Assembly (NCBI GenBank): GCA_018304505.1
Contig: JAGVWA010000012.1
Coordinates: forward strand, 1-10,378
Source of the DNA: Nanobdellati archaeon
GTDB lineage: Archaea; B1Sed10-29; JAGVWA01
Length of the DNA stretch: 10,378 nucleotides
Reading direction: 5' to 3'
Both the position numbers and the translations under genes were made by a program. This document shows positions 680 to 10,378 of the stretch, piece by piece (within the stretch, counting starts at the first letter, position 1; each line of letters starts with the position of its first letter). The notes beneath the pieces were generated by a model. The model worked only from the letters and a program-made list of their open reading frames with translations, did not search any database and was not told the origin of the DNA.

Positions 680-702
680 TTATCAAAATCGCTAGCTTCA
701 AC
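680..702. repeat. leuS 3'-end repeat, copy R1
   Basis: These 23 bp are identical to 1097-1119 and match 1627-1649 at 21 of 23 positions. The last site is the coding end of leuS. Read on the minus strand in the leuS frame the copy would encode LKLAILI, against LKPAILIS in leuS. The two positions that differ from leuS are the same in R1 and R2, so these copies are closer to each other than to leuS. Confidence 0.8.
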
Positions 703-726
703 AACAGCTCTTTTTATTGCATAACC

Positions 727-734
727 ATTATAAA
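727..734 (+). promoter_or_regulatory. TATA box of the first hicB
   Basis: ATTATAAA lies 31 nt before the ATG at 758. A matching 13-bp string, ATAACCATTATAA, sits at the same distance before the second hicB, so the two promoters are copies of each other. Confidence 0.65.
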
Positions 735-757
735 CCTCTACTTCGAAAGTAAGACAC

Positions 758-1039
758 ATGGCTAAAAAATTAAACATAATAGAATTACCTGTATTTACCT
801 ACAAAGACGGCAAGTACTACGTATCAGAAGTTCCATTCATACATGTTGCTAGCCAAGGCAAAACAATAGATGAATCGATAGCCAACGTAACGGAAGCAGT
901 AGAGCTCTACTTCGAGGGAGAAGACGTAGAGGAGATACTAAAAGAAAAAGTGCCATTAAAAAGCAACGTGTACACAAGCACCATAGCATTTGACAAAAAA
1001 ACAAAACACTTAGTCGCCACTAGTTCTATAACGAGCTGA
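758..1039 (+). CDS. hicB: HicB-family antitoxin, now without an intact toxin partner
   Basis: This 93-aa protein has the HicB partial RNase-H-like fold. An N-terminal strand is followed by YKDGKYYVSEVPFI (about residues 15-28), then the SQGKTIDESIANVTEAVELYFE helix (about 32-53), the usual HicB core. In the family this protein neutralises the HicA mRNA-cleaving toxin in the cytoplasm. The C-terminal region (54-93) shows no recognisable ribbon-helix-helix or helix-turn-helix domain. The start at 758 fits a leaderless mRNA from the TATA at 727-734. Directly downstream lies only a broken hicA beginning, so it is an orphan antitoxin. It differs strongly in sequence from the second HicB at 1167, although their promoters and upstream repeats match. 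Retention may reflect cross-neutralisation or recent decay; both are inference. Confidence 0.75.
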   Translation: MAKKLNIIELPVFTYKDGKYYVSEVPFIHVASQGKTIDESIANVTEAVELYFEGEDVEEILKEKVPLKSNVYTSTIAFDKKTKHLVATSSITS

Positions 1040-1045
1040 GCCAGA

Positions 1046-1090
1046 ATGACAAAAATACCGGTGCTCTGGAAGAATTTATTGACCTTCTCA
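1046..1090 (+). pseudogene. remnant of a hicA toxin gene (first 15 codons, frameshifted)
   Basis: Six bases after the first hicB, ATG 1046 opens MTKIPVL, a typical HicA N-terminus. After codon 7 the frame is lost: continuing in the +2 frame gives LEEFIDLLN, which resembles the next HicA stretch (helix with EFIDLL). This fits a small deletion where a Ser-Gly pair would normally stand. The similarity stops exactly where repeat copy R2 begins at 1091, and the rest of the toxin is absent. It is therefore a hicA gene truncated by the repeat-bounded event and also frameshifted. The call rests on the match to the family N-terminus and on position after hicB; the fragment is short. Confidence 0.6.
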
Positions 1091-1124
1091 ACTAGCTTAT
1101 CAAAATCGCTAGCTTCAACGGCAT
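1091..1124. repeat. leuS 3'-end repeat, copy R2
   Basis: This block matches 1621-1654 (end of leuS and just beyond) at all but two positions over at least 33 bp, and includes the complement of the leuS stop codon (CTA at 1092-1094). It lies between the broken hicA and the promoter of the second hicB. The core 1097-1119 is identical to copy R1. Confidence 0.85.
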
Positions 1125-1135
1125 ATTACATAACC

Positions 1136-1143
1136 ATTATAAA
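1136..1143 (+). promoter_or_regulatory. TATA box of the hicB-hicA operon
   Basis: ATTATAAA lies 31 nt before the ATG at 1167, the same octamer and spacing as in front of the first hicB. No leader is expected. Confidence 0.65.
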
Positions 1144-1166
1144 CTCCCACCCCGTAACTAAAATAC

Positions 1167-1388
1167 ATGACTAAAAAATACGAATTTACCGTTCTGATTG
1201 AAAAAGACGAAGACGGCTGGCTAGTCGGAAAAGTGCCGGATCTACAAGGCTGTGCGACGCAAGCAAAAACCATGAATGAATTGATGAAACGCGTAAGAGA
1301 AGCCATCCTAGCTTGTCTTGAAAGCGAAAAACAAGAGCCCCAGCACCTAGAATTAATCGGCGTGCAAAAATTAGAGATAAACGCATGA
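1167..1388 (+). CDS. hicB: HicB antitoxin of the intact HicAB pair
   Basis: This 73-aa protein has the compact HicB fold: EFTVLIEKDEDGWLVGKVPDLQGC (about residues 5-28), then the helix TQAKTMNELMKRVREAILACLE (about 31-52). The strand DEDGWLVGKVPDLQGC is the classic HicB signature. It ends soon after the core and has no separate DNA-binding domain, so autoregulation, if any, is not obvious. The stop overlaps the hicA start (ATGA at 1385-1388), so the pair is translationally coupled in antitoxin-toxin order. The start follows a TATA box at leaderless spacing. Confidence 0.85.
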   Translation: MTKKYEFTVLIEKDEDGWLVGKVPDLQGCATQAKTMNELMKRVREAILACLESEKQEPQHLELIGVQKLEINA

Positions 1389-1618
1389 CCCGCTTAACCC
1401 CTATTTCTGGAAAGAAACTCTCTAAAATTGTAGAACAGCTTGGTTTCAAACTAGTTCATCAAAAGGGTAGTCACAAACGTTACGTTCATGACGATGGAAG
1501 AAAAACCACAATCCCCACACATGGAAACGAAGAAATCGGCATCGGCTTATTGATTGAAATCCTCGGACAAATCAAGATACCAAGAGAAGAGTTTTTAAAA
1601 CTACTAAAGAAAAGGTAA
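1385..1618 (+). CDS. hicA: HicA mRNA interferase toxin (YcfA-like)
   Basis: This 77-aa protein has the double-stranded-RNA-binding-like fold of HicA: MTRLTPISGKKLSKIVEQLGF (1-21), then the core strand QKGSHKRYVH (26-35) with the catalytic His at about residue 30 in the G-S-H motif, then TTIPTHGNEEIGIGLLIEIL (41-60). A C-terminal helix ends LLKKR. Family members cleave mRNA in the cytoplasm and are held inactive by HicB. All family landmarks are present, so it is probably active. It overlaps hicB by four bases. Its stop at 1616-1618 is only 3 nt from the end of leuS on the other strand, where the repeat copy R3 begins. Confidence 0.85.
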   Translation: MTRLTPISGKKLSKIVEQLGFKLVHQKGSHKRYVHDDGRKTTIPTHGNEEIGIGLLIEILGQIKIPREEFLKLLKKR

Positions 1619-1620
1619 CT

Positions 1621-1654
1621 ACTAGCTTATCAAAATCGCGGGCTTCAACGGCAC
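1621..1654. repeat. native leuS 3' end, repeat copy R3
   Basis: This is the coding end of leuS (last codons LKPAILIS and the TAG) and the presumed source or target of copies R1 and R2. It starts 3 nt after the hicA stop, so the cassette R2-hicB-hicA abuts it with almost no spare sequence. Confidence 0.8.
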
Positions 1655-4462
1655 CGCGTTGCCCGCTTTTGCTTCTTTTGACCCAGAAGCTTTCATCACT
1701 TCAACCTCAGCGCCAAAGCGCTGCTTGAAGAAATCGCTAGCCTCCTTGATGGCATCAAACTCCTGCTGCTCAGAAGGCACGTCATCAAGCAGCTCTCCAG
1801 CGTGCTTTGATAAGTAACTCACATAAGTCACTGCCTGCTTTCCATGGGCTTTGACATCCTCTTGCTGCATCGCGTTCTTCAAGATGTTCTGTGGATGCTT
1901 CATCTGCGCAGCCATCCTATAAACAGTGCGTTTCCATTCCGGCGCAATGAAAATAGTTATGTTCGCCAGTTTGCCTAAGTTGGCGAGCTTCTGCACGTTT
2001 TCAATGTCACCCTGTAAACCAAGGAGCATCTGCTCATTCGCCTCGGCTGTTCCATCAATTTTTGTCTCGTCAGCCACTGGGTACGGTTGCTGTACAACAA
2101 AGCCCTTGTTGCCAAGCTGCTCCCATAGCTCCTCGCACGTGTGCGGAATTACGGGGTTTATCAACTTAACAAGCGTCTCGGCAGCCCACTTTGCCACCTC
2201 CTTGTTGTCGCCATTCCTGGTTTTGTACCACGCCAGGACCTTGAGGCCTTCGAACATGGCCTGATCAATCGCCTTCCGCAGCTCAAGCGAATTGAAGCTG
2301 ATTGTGGTGCTCTTTATTATTGTGTTTATCCTGGACTCGAGCCACGCGTCTATATGTTTTTTCTTGCTGCCTTTGACTTGCTTCATTTCCATTACCGCAT
2401 TGTAGAAGCGCTCTGCTTGGCTTTTGTAATTCATCACAGTATCATGAGCCCATTCAATGTCGCTAAACGGGCTGCCGACGTGCGCGTAAAACAAACGCAT
2501 TCCGTCAACGCTATACTCATCAGCAGGCGGAATCGCATTACTAAAGACGCCGCCTTTGCTCTTGCTTATTTTTTCTCCGCCGCCTTCTGTAACCCAGTAG
2601 TTGACGAAGATGCCTTGTGGCCAGTCGTTCTCAGGAAGAATGGCCGCGTGGTTCATGATGTAAACCGGAAAGTGCACTGTCTGGTGTTCCTTGCCGCCAA
2701 GGTTGATATCGACAGGATACCAGTACTCAAATTCCTTTTTGACTTGTTTCCAAGTTTCGTTTTTTGGTTTTCCTTTACCTAAAAAAACGTAGTCGAAGAA
2801 TTCCTCTGTCAAGTCATCGAGCTGCAGCTTGCCTGCGTTGAAGTACCTTGACACAACGTAAAAAGCAGGATACAGCGTGGAATCACTGATGGCCTCGATT
2901 GTCCAGCCCTTGTCGAATGGAAATGGGGTACCAACCCAATTGCCTCTGCGCGTAGCGCTTCTATATCCGAACCAGTCCAACACGCCTGGCAGGTTATCCT
3001 TGTAGCTTTGGGGGTAAATGTTCATTCTCTTGGCATGCTCCTTCGACTTTTCTTTCACTTCCGGGTTTTTGTAGTCGATCACCCACTGGTCGTTGATTTT
3101 CTTTACAACGACGCGTTCGCCACACCTGCAAACAACTGGCTCTGAAAAGTCCACAAACACGTCTGCTTTGCCTGCGCTGATTAGTTCTTGTTTTATCTTG
3201 TCTTTGGCTTCCATTACGCTCATGCCAGCGTATTTCCCAGAGTGCTTCGTCATGGTACCTGTGTGGAACCCTGCCTTATATACCTCTTTTTTCGCTTCTT
3301 CGAGTTTCGGGTCGTCCTGATTCTTTATTTTGAGGTCTCGGCATATTTTCACTGCAGCCATGTCGCCATAGCCTTTCACTTCCATAATTGGGATTACCTC
3401 TATTGATTTTATTTTCTCGTAGTCCAGGCCGTATTTTTCGCAATCGACCTTGGACTTCTGCAAGTCCACGAGACCCATGTAATCGATAGGCGCATCGCTT
3501 GGCACCGACGTCACTATGCCAGAGCCAATGCCAGGGTCACAGAATTTACTTGGCAGGATAATGATTTCCCGATCGACCCCTGGCGCCTTAGCGTACTGTC
3601 CAATCAAGTTCCCGCCTTTGATTTTCTGTATCACCTCAAGGTTGTCTTTCTGATACCTCAGTTTGGACAGAGCTTCTTGGCTTAGTATCCATTCTTCCCC
3701 ATCGACCTTGGCGAGCGCATACTCGACGTTTGGATCGATCCACAAGTTGGTTTGCCCGTACACGGTTTCTGGTCTGAGGGTGGCGGCTATAATATACCGG
3801 TTTGGTTTTTCAAATTCGAACTTCAGCAAGGTGTACTCGTTCTGTTGCGCATTACCTCCTTTGCTCAAGTCGGTTTCGCTTGGGTCTACAGCTACAGAGC
3901 CGTCCTTTGGGCAGTAGGCCTCGTACGACTCGATTTGTTTCAACATTCCCAAGTTTTTGAGTTTCCTGAACTGCCACTCGATGAACTTCTGGTACTGAGG
4001 GTATTGCGTGCAAACGATGGCGTCAAAGTCCGCCAATAAACCGAAGCGCTTGAATGTCTTCTGGTAATTTTCTGTGAAGTATTTCAAGACAACCATGATG
4101 TCCTTTTCGCCATCCTTCTTGAGTTGCTCTATCTGCTTTTCATTGAGGCCGTCGATCTTGAGGTTGTTGATTATGTCTTCCCGGCCTTCTTTTAGTTTGC
4201 GGAGCCATGTTGGCGCCACGTTTCCAGAGGCGTGAGTGCCTACTGGAAAAAAGATTGAGTGGCCTTGCATCCTTTTGAGGCGGCAGATCATGTCGCTGTA
4301 AGTAAACCCCCGCATGTGCCCGACGTGCTGATGACCAGAGACGCCAGGGTAAGCAAAGTGCAAGTAGAATTTTTTCTCCCCCGTTGGCCCTGACTTGAGT
4401 TCTGGGCTAGCATACCATCTTTCCTGCCATTTCTTCTCGATTTGTTTGTGATCAAATTTCAT
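1622..4462 (-). CDS. leuS: leucyl-tRNA synthetase, archaeal/eukaryotic type
   Basis: This 946-aa class Ia synthetase charges tRNA-Leu with leucine in the cytoplasm. The HIGH motif reads HVGH at residues 46-49 inside FAYPGVSGHQHVGHMRGF, the archaeal pattern, and the KMSKS loop is KISKS at 631-635. The editing domain lies between, at about 222-440: the Thr-rich ATLRPETVYGQTNLWI (226-241) and GSGIVTSVPSDAPIDY (313-328) with the acidic residues at 323 and 327. An anticodon-binding helical domain (about 680-830) and the archaeal C-terminal extension ending PLKPAILIS follow. Length is normal for archaeal LeuRS. The start has an unusually clear Shine-Dalgarno site for this window and a leader of about 30 nt. 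The 3' end is the sequence repeated at R1 and R2. Confidence 0.97.
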   Translation of the reverse strand: MKFDHKQIEKKWQERWYASPELKSGPTGEKKFYLHFAYPGVSGHQHVGHMRGFTYSDMICRLKRMQGHSIFFPVGTHASGNVAPTWLRKLKEGREDIINNLKIDGLNEKQIEQLKKDGEKDIMVVLKYFTENYQKTFKRFGLLADFDAIVCTQYPQYQKFIEWQFRKLKNLGMLKQIESYEAYCPKDGSVAVDPSETDLSKGGNAQQNEYTLLKFEFEKPNRYIIAATLRPETVYGQTNLWIDPNVEYALAKVDGEEWILSQEALSKLRYQKDNLEVIQKIKGGNLIGQYAKAPGVDREIIILPSKFCDPGIGSGIVTSVPSDAPIDYMGLVDLQKSKVDCEKYGLDYEKIKSIEVIPIMEVKGYGDMAAVKICRDLKIKNQDDPKLEEAKKEVYKAGFHTGTMTKHSGKYAGMSVMEAKDKIKQELISAGKADVFVDFSEPVVCRCGERVVVKKINDQWVIDYKNPEVKEKSKEHAKRMNIYPQSYKDNLPGVLDWFGYRSATRRGNWVGTPFPFDKGWTIEAISDSTLYPAFYVVSRYFNAGKLQLDDLTEEFFDYVFLGKGKPKNETWKQVKKEFEYWYPVDINLGGKEHQTVHFPVYIMNHAAILPENDWPQGIFVNYWVTEGGGEKISKSKGGVFSNAIPPADEYSVDGMRLFYAHVGSPFSDIEWAHDTVMNYKSQAERFYNAVMEMKQVKGSKKKHIDAWLESRINTIIKSTTISFNSLELRKAIDQAMFEGLKVLAWYKTRNGDNKEVAKWAAETLVKLINPVIPHTCEELWEQLGNKGFVVQQPYPVADETKIDGTAEANEQMLLGLQGDIENVQKLANLGKLANITIFIAPEWKRTVYRMAAQMKHPQNILKNAMQQEDVKAHGKQAVTYVSYLSKHAGELLDDVPSEQQEFDAIKEASDFFKQRFGAEVEVMKASGSKEAKAGNAVPLKPAILIS

Positions 4463-9653: not shown

Positions 9654-9792
9654 GCGATGACGTCACCAGGCTTGCCAGAACCTCTCTGAGGTGATGATGA
9701 AGATCATGAGTGCAGAGCAGCTTATCTGCTTACAGATAGGCGCAGCTTATCTGCTTACAGATAGGCGCAGCTTATCTGCTTACAGATAGGCG
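9654..9792 (+). ncRNA. candidate short RNA or leader with three hairpin repeats
   Basis: The predicted transcript begins at GCGATGA, a near match to a C box. CTGA (9686-9689) and GTGATGA (9691-9697) would be D' and C' boxes of a C/D RNA, but the first spacer (25 nt) is too long and no final D box is clear. The alternative is a short leader: a leaderless ATG 9657 reads MTSPGLPEPL then TGA (9687-9689). That stop overlaps a GAGGTGAT site followed by ATGs, as at the operon junctions at 6689 and 9063. A 31-codon frame (9694-9789) then runs through the repeats. Three 25-nt hairpins form the 3' part. Neither reading is established. Confidence 0.25.
9718..9792 (+). repeat. three tandem copies of a 25-bp hairpin unit
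   Basis: Units 9718-9742, 9743-9767 and 9768-9792 are identical, followed by a 4-nt partial copy (CAGC, 9793-9796). Each forms a stem CTTATCTG / CAGATAGG around the loop CTTA. There are no spacers, so it is not a CRISPR array. The first 14 bp of the same unit reappear at 10365-10378, right after relE. Confidence 0.9.
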
Positions 9793-9810
9793 CAGCAATT
9801 TTAACTTATA

Positions 9811-9820
9811 GTTTGCAAAC
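9811..9820. promoter_or_regulatory. palindrome next to the relBE TATA, possible operator
   Basis: GTTTGCAAAC is a perfect 10-bp palindrome directly before ATTTATATAG (9821-9830), the best TATA box for relB. The position suits binding by the RelB or RelBE repressor; no direct evidence. A second weaker TATA (TTGTATAA, 9835-9842) fits a leaderless start at 9861. Confidence 0.4.
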
Positions 9821-9860
9821 ATTTATATAGTTTATTGTATAATAAATCTATAGTGATTCT

Positions 9861-10109
9861 ATGGTATCTTATACAAGCATACAAATCTTGCCTGAAACAA
9901 GAGAAGAATTAAGTCATTTGAAATCAAGCCCTCGGGAGACTTATGACGAGTTAATCAAAAAATTGATTGAATTGATTCCAGAAGGAGACGAAGAAGGCAC
10001 TTACAAAGATGAATTTAAAGTTGGCCTTTTGAACGCAAAACTCGATGCCATAAAAGGAAGAACCTATTCGCTTTCAGACGTAAAAAAATCCCTAGGACTG
10101 AATAAATGA
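9861..10109 (+). CDS. relB: RelB-like antitoxin
   Basis: An 82-aa protein with the layout of small archaeal RelE-partner antitoxins. The N-terminal strand-helix part SYTSIQILPETREELSHLK (3-21) could form a ribbon-helix-helix, with the helix ETYDELIKKLIELIP (27-41). An acidic linker (EGDEEGTYKDEF) and a C-terminal toxin-wrapping region (LDAIKGRTYSLSDVKKSLGL, 61-80) follow. It binds and blocks RelE and probably represses its own operon. Its stop overlaps the relE start (ATGA at 10106-10109), so the two are coupled. The ATG at 9861 is the only good start and follows a TATA and a palindrome. Confidence 0.75.
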   Translation: MVSYTSIQILPETREELSHLKSSPRETYDELIKKLIELIPEGDEEGTYKDEFKVGLLNAKLDAIKGRTYSLSDVKKSLGLNK

Positions 10110-10360
10110 CCTGGAAGATTGAGTTTACAAAAGAAGCACTTAGAGACATCTCAAAACTTGAAACAAAGATTCTCGACAGGATACTAGACAAACTTGAACA
10201 GACAAGAGAGAACCCACATCATTATTTTCAACGCTTGGTGGGCCACGATGATTTCAAATTCAGGGTGGGCGATTATAGGATACTAGTGCTCTTATTGCAT
10301 GACGAGAAAATAATAATACAAAAAGTAGGACACCGAAAAAACGTTTACAAACGTCTCTAA
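10106..10360 (+). CDS. relE: RelE-family mRNA interferase toxin
   Basis: An 84-aa protein of the RelE/ParE fold: MTWKIEFTKEALRDISKLETKILDRILDKLEQTRENP (1-37), then LVGHDDFKFRVGDYRILVLL (44-63) and the last strand IIIQKVGHRKNVYKRL (69-84). K-F-R-V-G-D-Y-R-I and G-H-R-K-N-V-Y are the family signatures and carry the basic and aromatic residues used for ribosome-dependent mRNA cleavage in archaeal RelE. Nothing is missing. It is coupled to relB. Its stop (10358-10360) is followed within 5 nt by the next copy of the 25-bp hairpin repeat. Confidence 0.85.
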   Translation: MTWKIEFTKEALRDISKLETKILDRILDKLEQTRENPHHYFQRLVGHDDFKFRVGDYRILVLLLHDEKIIIQKVGHRKNVYKRL

Positions 10361-10364
10361 GCAG

Positions 10365-10378
10365 CAGCTTATCTGCTT
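10365..10378 (+). repeat. start of a fourth copy of the 25-bp hairpin unit (cut by window end)
   Basis: These 14 bp (CAGCTTATCTGCTT) are identical to the first 14 bp of the units at 9718, 9743 and 9768. The copy runs into the window edge, so the number of units downstream is unknown. It places relBE between two runs of the same repeat. Confidence 0.8.

Follow-up and report, generated by a model that had tools for sequence, protein, structure and literature searches.

Toxin–antitoxin cassettes between copies of the leuS 3′ end in an archaeal genome: probable serial insertion with long, variable target duplication

The leuS gene and the copies of its 3′ end

The window analysed here is the entire contig C2, 10,378 bp in length, of a 917-kb archaeal genome that is 93% complete. 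Its reverse strand carries leuS (1622–4462), recognised from Pfam and from its orthologues as an intact host gene for a leucyl-tRNA synthetase of 946 amino acids, whose native 3′ end, stop codon included, occupies 1621–1654 of the same strand (R3, located from the list of open reading frames and the repeat search). The repeat search placed two further copies of this end on the forward strand: a middle copy, R2, at 1091–1123, and an outermost and most decayed copy, R1, at 674–706. A preliminary description of this DNA had reported that the leuS end recurs at 1091–1124 with two mismatches over 33 bp, that its 23-bp core is found again at 680–702, and that the native end remains intact, and all three points were borne out. 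R2 (1091–1123) matches the native end (1621–1653) at 31 of 33 positions, the exact core of R1 (680–702) is identical to 1097–1119 of R2 (23/23), and R1 as a whole (674–706) shows 82% identity to R2 across 33 nt. When up to three mismatches were allowed, the core was found exactly three times in the window, with 0 copies expected from 200 shuffles, and the count over all 917 kb of the genome was likewise three, always at the leuS site; R1 was likewise marked as unique in the genome. Chance similarity of the repeats was rejected (0 in shuffles), and dispersal of the core over many unrelated sites, which had been considered earlier, was not found, the core being confined to this one spot. A search of a viral contig collection for the core also gave no match.

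R1 and R2 both read CTAG where R3 reads CGGG, and the leuS codon at this position specifies proline in R3 and in the leuS genes of relatives alike, from which the state common to R1 and R2 is the derived one. None of 75 other archaeal leuS genes carries a comparable duplicated end, each having a single end, and the event appears on that count to be lineage-specific, as far as sampled. The closest leuS genes are 48–55% identical (at best 55% among 40 relatives and 49% among GTDB contigs), and those of Candidatus Forterrea multitransposorum and of a Candidatus Iainarchaeum-like MAG show 44% identity, from which the host probably belongs to the Diapherotrites/Iainarchaeota group of DPANN archaea. 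The leuS search of the 40 relatives and the GTDB contigs revealed no genome of the same family in which an empty site could be sought.

Two hicBA cassettes at the leuS end

The three leuS-end repeats bracket two hicBA cassettes. The second of these is an ordinary HicBA type II toxin–antitoxin (TA) pair, in which the antitoxin gene hicB2 (1167–1388, forward strand, 73 amino acids; HicB-like family PF15919, E = 1.8e-7) overlaps by 4 nt, within one operon, the intact toxin gene hicA2 (1385–1618, forward strand, 77 amino acids). The latter matches PF07927 (HicA_toxin, E = 1.3e-16) and PDB entry 1whz, with the conserved GSH motif present as GSHKRY in the translation. Cassette 1 differs in being degenerate, with its toxin deleted. 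Its antitoxin gene, hicB1 (758–1039, forward strand, 93 amino acids), has no Pfam match and no NCBIfam name at the cut-off level, and was assigned from 49% identity over 55 amino acids to a HicB adjoining a HicA in a relative (L062), together with weak matches to solved HicB structures. An intact HicA toxin is absent from this cassette; its first and last codons alone are left at 1046–1095 (forward strand), where MTKIPV (1046–1063) is fused, with a change of frame, to the tail LEEFIDLLN and a stop codon (1066–1095). The N-terminal score of this remnant, hicA1, is reached by 1.1% of ATG starts, and not one of 12,169 stop-anchored peptides has its C-terminal tail motif; an alternative score taken from the last ten HicA residues, which have ragged ends, is weaker, with 6% of peptides reaching the hicA1 level. 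Cassette 1 was most likely a full hicBA pair from which an internal deletion removed the toxin; the preliminary description had overlooked what remains of hicA. R2 looks like a former native leuS end, because the hicA1 stop codon (TAG, 1093–1095) overlaps the copy of the leuS stop within it; by the same token, cassette 1 would once have held the place next to the leuS end that cassette 2 now occupies.

The two antitoxins share 37% identity over just 43 amino acids, with similar protein starts (MAKK and MTKK). The stretches behind R1 and R2 (715–770 and 1124–1179) are 80% identical over 56 nt, and include promoter 1 (721–735) and promoter 2 (1130–1144), both reading ATAACCATTATAAAC on the forward strand, and in both the ATG follows 31 nt after the start of the TATA-like ATTATAAA. 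Such spacing of an archaeal TATA-like box is consistent with leaderless transcription. The earlier observation of near-identical promoters, set at the same distance from clearly different hicB genes, therefore holds.

The derived bases common to R1 and R2, together with promoters that are 80% identical before very different hicB genes, suggest exchange or gene conversion between the cassettes, or re-entry of units composed of leuS end, promoter and hicBA by recombination at the leuS end. A simple independent insertion, with neither exchange nor gene conversion, fails to explain the common CTAG and the like promoters, and conversion and leuS-end recombination can both have acted in turn. A specific form of the latter is that small circles of this composition circulate and enter the leuS end by homologous recombination of the Campbell type, exchanging cassettes between conserved edges. 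The two substitutions found in R1 and R2 and absent from leuS, at a codon that specifies proline in the relatives, speak in its favour, as do the promoters. Against it, the host end must already be joined to a TA pair, which leaves the first insertions unexplained; 23–33 bp is short for homologous recombination; and gene conversion between R1 and R2 would equally account for the common bases. The entry of such circles is accordingly rated as rather unlikely, and it is in any case a variant of the explanation favoured below, as applied to the second leuS event, and not its opposite. Homologous recombination between leuS ends, offered as an alternative in the preliminary description, is thus possible for the second event at this locus and leaves the first insertions unaccounted for.

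The position of R1 and R2 directly upstream of the hicB promoters, and the palindrome GCTAGC contained in both, would also accord with a regulatory role as HicB operators or common terminators whose likeness to the leuS end is fortuitous. This reading is very improbable, given the agreement with the neighbouring gene's coding end at 31 of 33 positions, the zero count in shuffles, and the wholly different repeats found at other TA loci. No inverted repeats bounding the leuS cassettes were seen in the repeat search.

A second probable insertion in the window

A second TA locus occupies the far end of the contig. Three tandem 25-bp units GCAGCTTATCTGCTTACAGATAGGC (9716–9791, forward strand) precede an antitoxin gene (9861–10109) and an overlapping ParE/RelE toxin gene (10106–10360; PF05016, E = 9.1e-10) on the same strand, and a 16-bp copy of this flank (AGCAGCTTATCTGCTT, 10363–10378, forward strand) reaches the contig end. 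Since the GCAGCTTATCTGCTTACAGATAGGC sequence recurs after the toxin stop and runs into the contig end, the repeat of 25-bp units at 9716–10378 probably broke the assembly. HicA/ParE genes also stand at contig ends in related drafts (G005:C37, G011:C50, G003:C12, G010:C11, and G036:C5), as expected if flanking repeats break assemblies.

Other probable insertion sites in the same genome

A uniform flank test was applied to all loci, a repeat score of at least 16 counting as flanked. By this measure, 9 of the 12 HicA/ParE loci of the genome lie between direct repeats of 16–118 bp: four HicA loci (L035, L037, L038, and L040) and five of the six ParE/RelE loci (L083, L084, L085, L087, and L088). 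Only 3.5% of 600 non-TA control positions reach this score, the strongest of them being repeat-protein, coding-repeat or paralogue regions. PIN (VapC) loci are mostly without repeats (1/8 flanked); many PIN proteins are not TA toxins. In a repeat scan over 259 kb of the 917 kb, once coding repeats, paralogues and a palindromic motif are set aside, the direct repeats of at least 18 bp flank TA genes.

The repeat sequence is different at every site and derives from local host sequence, the sources being the leuS end, a tRNA-like 3′ end, the apgM, ATPase and pilin promoters, and a vapC end. About ten unrelated sites are involved; their targets are gene ends and promoters, and their inserts come from several TA families. 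Among the four flanked HicA loci, a perfect 43/43-bp repeat of the apgM promoter surrounds a hicAB pair upstream of apgM, and a 25/25-bp repeat of an ATPase promoter surrounds a hicBA pair upstream of a secretion-type ATPase, the other two being the tRNA-end array and leuS. A fifth HicA locus adjoins a gene 3′ end that is duplicated over 97 bp, and hicA is followed there by a third, degenerate copy. The ParE/RelE loci show, besides the 16-bp repeat of the present window, a 33-bp imperfect repeat with the pilin promoter, an array of imperfect repeats of about 50 bp, a 22-bp repeat near tyrS, and, at L088, a 117/118-bp repeat of the vapC 3′ end; the last is not a textbook target duplication, the native copy being ambiguous on closer reading. 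A DUF4258/MqsA-like pair with flanking direct repeats provides a further case.

Serial arrangements occur beyond leuS. An array on contig C3 is built of three different TA cassettes, set apart by four copies of a tRNA-like gene's 3′ end. This gene may be intron-bearing or decayed, as it scores just below the Rfam tRNA cut-off (28.1 bits against 29). The middle cassette of this array (L042, 10900–11302) is an inverted hicBA pair whose hicA contains an in-frame TAG, and is another decayed older cassette. The inserts hold TA-sized reading frames only, with no recombinase encoded within, and the toxin stop is often 3–30 nt from the repeat. In the L085 array of the same contig (315–3045), the stretches between four imperfect repeats are taken up by a nucleotidyltransferase-like gene, a RelBE pair and an NYN-domain gene, from which the inserts are not solely classical TA pairs.

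The genome-wide pattern bears on whether a single inherited tandem duplication of the leuS end and hicBA, with later divergence of the hicB genes, could account for the leuS locus. The presence of hicBA in both cassettes and the like promoters and protein starts are what such a duplication would leave. The 80% identity of the promoters, however, lies far above the similarity of the proteins (37% over 43 amino acids); elsewhere, unrelated TA families in opposite orientation stand between copies of one repeat, and other sites have single insertions with exact flanking repeats. A tandem duplication, already contemplated in the preliminary description as a competing history, is therefore improbable.

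Archaeal relatives

The same association was sought in relatives, which are archaea mostly of other orders and phyla, with a repeat score of at least 18, a spacing of at most 1000 bp, and positions around leuS as controls. Eight of 58 HicA/ParE loci were flanked, as against none of 664 control positions (Fisher P = 1e-9). In one genome (G027, locus L057), an 84/84-bp repeat spans the promoter of an MBL-fold gene together with its first codons, and at L080 a repeat of about 112 bp corresponds to the 3′ end of an aldolase-like gene. The sole genus mate compared for the 84-bp case is missing the host gene and offers no empty site to read.

Recombinases and shared motifs

The preliminary description had seen no integrase in the window, and had proposed that a recombinase be looked for in the same genome. 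Genome-wide searches, at 93% completeness, detected no tyrosine recombinase (PF00589), not even one of the Xer type, no serine recombinase (PF00239), and no Cas1 (PF01867); in control genomes, PF00589 was found in 14 of 14 and PF00239 in 10 of 14. Several candidate identities were rejected on these grounds. An integrative element of the integrase type is not supported, there being no tyrosine or serine recombinase in the genome; casposon or CRISPR-type insertion would call for Cas1; and an integron is at odds with the lack of PF00589 and with repeats that are unrelated between sites and share no common attC. A common recognition motif, GGTTTAAACC, was also discarded, as it is missing from the leuS, tRNA-end, pilin, apgM, and vapC repeats.

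It might still be argued that the cassettes are non-autonomous integrative elements with a gene end as attachment site, mobilised in trans by a tyrosine recombinase from a virus or plasmid. Such integration classically leaves a copy of the 3′ end of a tRNA or protein gene beyond the insert, and integrases are known to build arrays at a single site. The absence of both recombinase families, which the control genomes largely possess, weighs against it, as do repeats that vary in sequence and length by site and targets that in several cases are promoters; the proposal carries little probability. The analogy with integrase-type elements drawn in the preliminary description is not supported in the form given there, since about ten unrelated sites, with different repeats of 16–118 bp at gene ends and promoters and with several TA families, fit the duplication of whatever target is struck and not the use of one attachment site.

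The palindrome GTTTAAAC was seen 15 times against 4.5 expected in the sampled sequence, an excess of about threefold, often within or beside TA inserts (L041, L042, L044, L052, and L094), and is possibly a regulator site.

Proposed mechanism of insertion

The repeats, the cassettes, the local origin of the repeats, their enrichment around TA loci, and the absence of the recombinases sought are matters of observation. Repeats of local host sequence and variable length, TA-only inserts, and no tested recombinase together form the signature of insertion with long target duplication. The leuS locus is probably the product of serial TA insertion with such long and variable duplications, two hicBA pairs having entered successively at the leuS 3′ end, and the preliminary view, that TA cassettes with leuS-end copies at their edges have entered where a housekeeping gene ends, is supported. 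Each insertion would duplicate the leuS end, keeping leuS intact and leaving the second copy on the far side; R1 would date from the first event and R2 from the one that followed, R3 being the leuS end of today, and the older cassette would later have lost its toxin through internal deletion. The same process would have been at work in other archaea and, within this genome, at some ten further sites that are gene ends or promoters.

The molecular step of insertion, we infer, dispenses with a dedicated integrase: most likely, a TA fragment would be trapped at a fork or a staggered break, with fill-in of the long overhangs, or a small circle carrying the host end would recombine in. Tolerated sites would be those at which the host gene comes through the duplication undamaged, which would account for the gene ends and promoters. 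In this genome, the repeats belong to intact host genes. As to persistence, an insert between direct repeats ought to be readily lost. Recombination across the repeats of a TA insert, however, would remove the antitoxin and leave toxin behind, which would be lethal, and TA inserts would survive; mainly TA modules may thus be left between direct repeats because the addictive pair punishes its own loss. The tight cassette ends count against target-duplicating capture, since fragments caught at random would not be expected to show them without later trimming, as do the mostly repeat-free PIN loci. The broader proposition, that recombinase-free capture of addiction modules at gene ends with target duplication is a major route of TA entry in archaea, producing polarised integrase-less arrays whose flanking repeats make every loss lethal, is a tentative one and falls somewhat short of an even chance.

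Relation to known systems

Insertion with long target duplication is known for restriction–modification (RM) systems in bacteria (PMC3874152, PMC3031569, PMC1643837), where the duplications are on the order of 100 bp (PMC3874152). For Helicobacter pylori and other prokaryotes, it is attributed to Nobusato 2000 and Furuta 2010, as cited in PMC3874152 and PMC3031569. RM systems are likewise addiction modules without a recombinase of their own, situated between long, variable and local direct repeats. The present case differs in that the inserts are type II TA pairs, the host is an archaeon, the repeats are mostly 16–118 bp, and insertions are stacked at one gene end; moreover, the RM cases were established by comparison with genomes in which the site is empty, whereas the archaeal TA case rests on the repeats in place. 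The full-text literature searched for direct repeats or duplicated targets on either side of TA modules contained the RM precedent only and no TA report; subscription papers fell outside this search, which does not establish that such a report is absent.

Integrons and superintegrons with TA cassettes also form arrays of small, promoter-bearing TA cassettes between repeats, but here no integrase gene was found and the repeats are site-specific local host sequence, not one attC family. Integrative elements at tRNA or gene 3′ ends, archaeal and bacterial, similarly keep the host gene intact with a copy of its 3′ end beyond the insert, whereas the inserts described here are about 500–1200 bp, hold only TA (or similar) genes, duplicate promoters and 5′ ends too, and come with no integrase found.

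How chromosomal TA modules, mostly located off recognisable mobile elements, arrive is a long-standing open question. The genome described here offers about ten insertion scars, old and recent, with serial arrays and a plausible selective reason for their persistence. Through it, TA modules are connected with the target-duplicating insertion known for RM systems, which can be probed by empty-site comparison, and a small gene pair enclosed by direct repeats of local sequence provides a signature for finding unknown TA systems.

One further insert of the genome (L041, contig C12, 6164–7238) consists of two overlapping genes of 80 and 234 amino acids between 97-bp duplicated gene ends. Neither gene has a Pfam or NCBIfam match; by analogy, this pair may represent an unknown TA or defence module.
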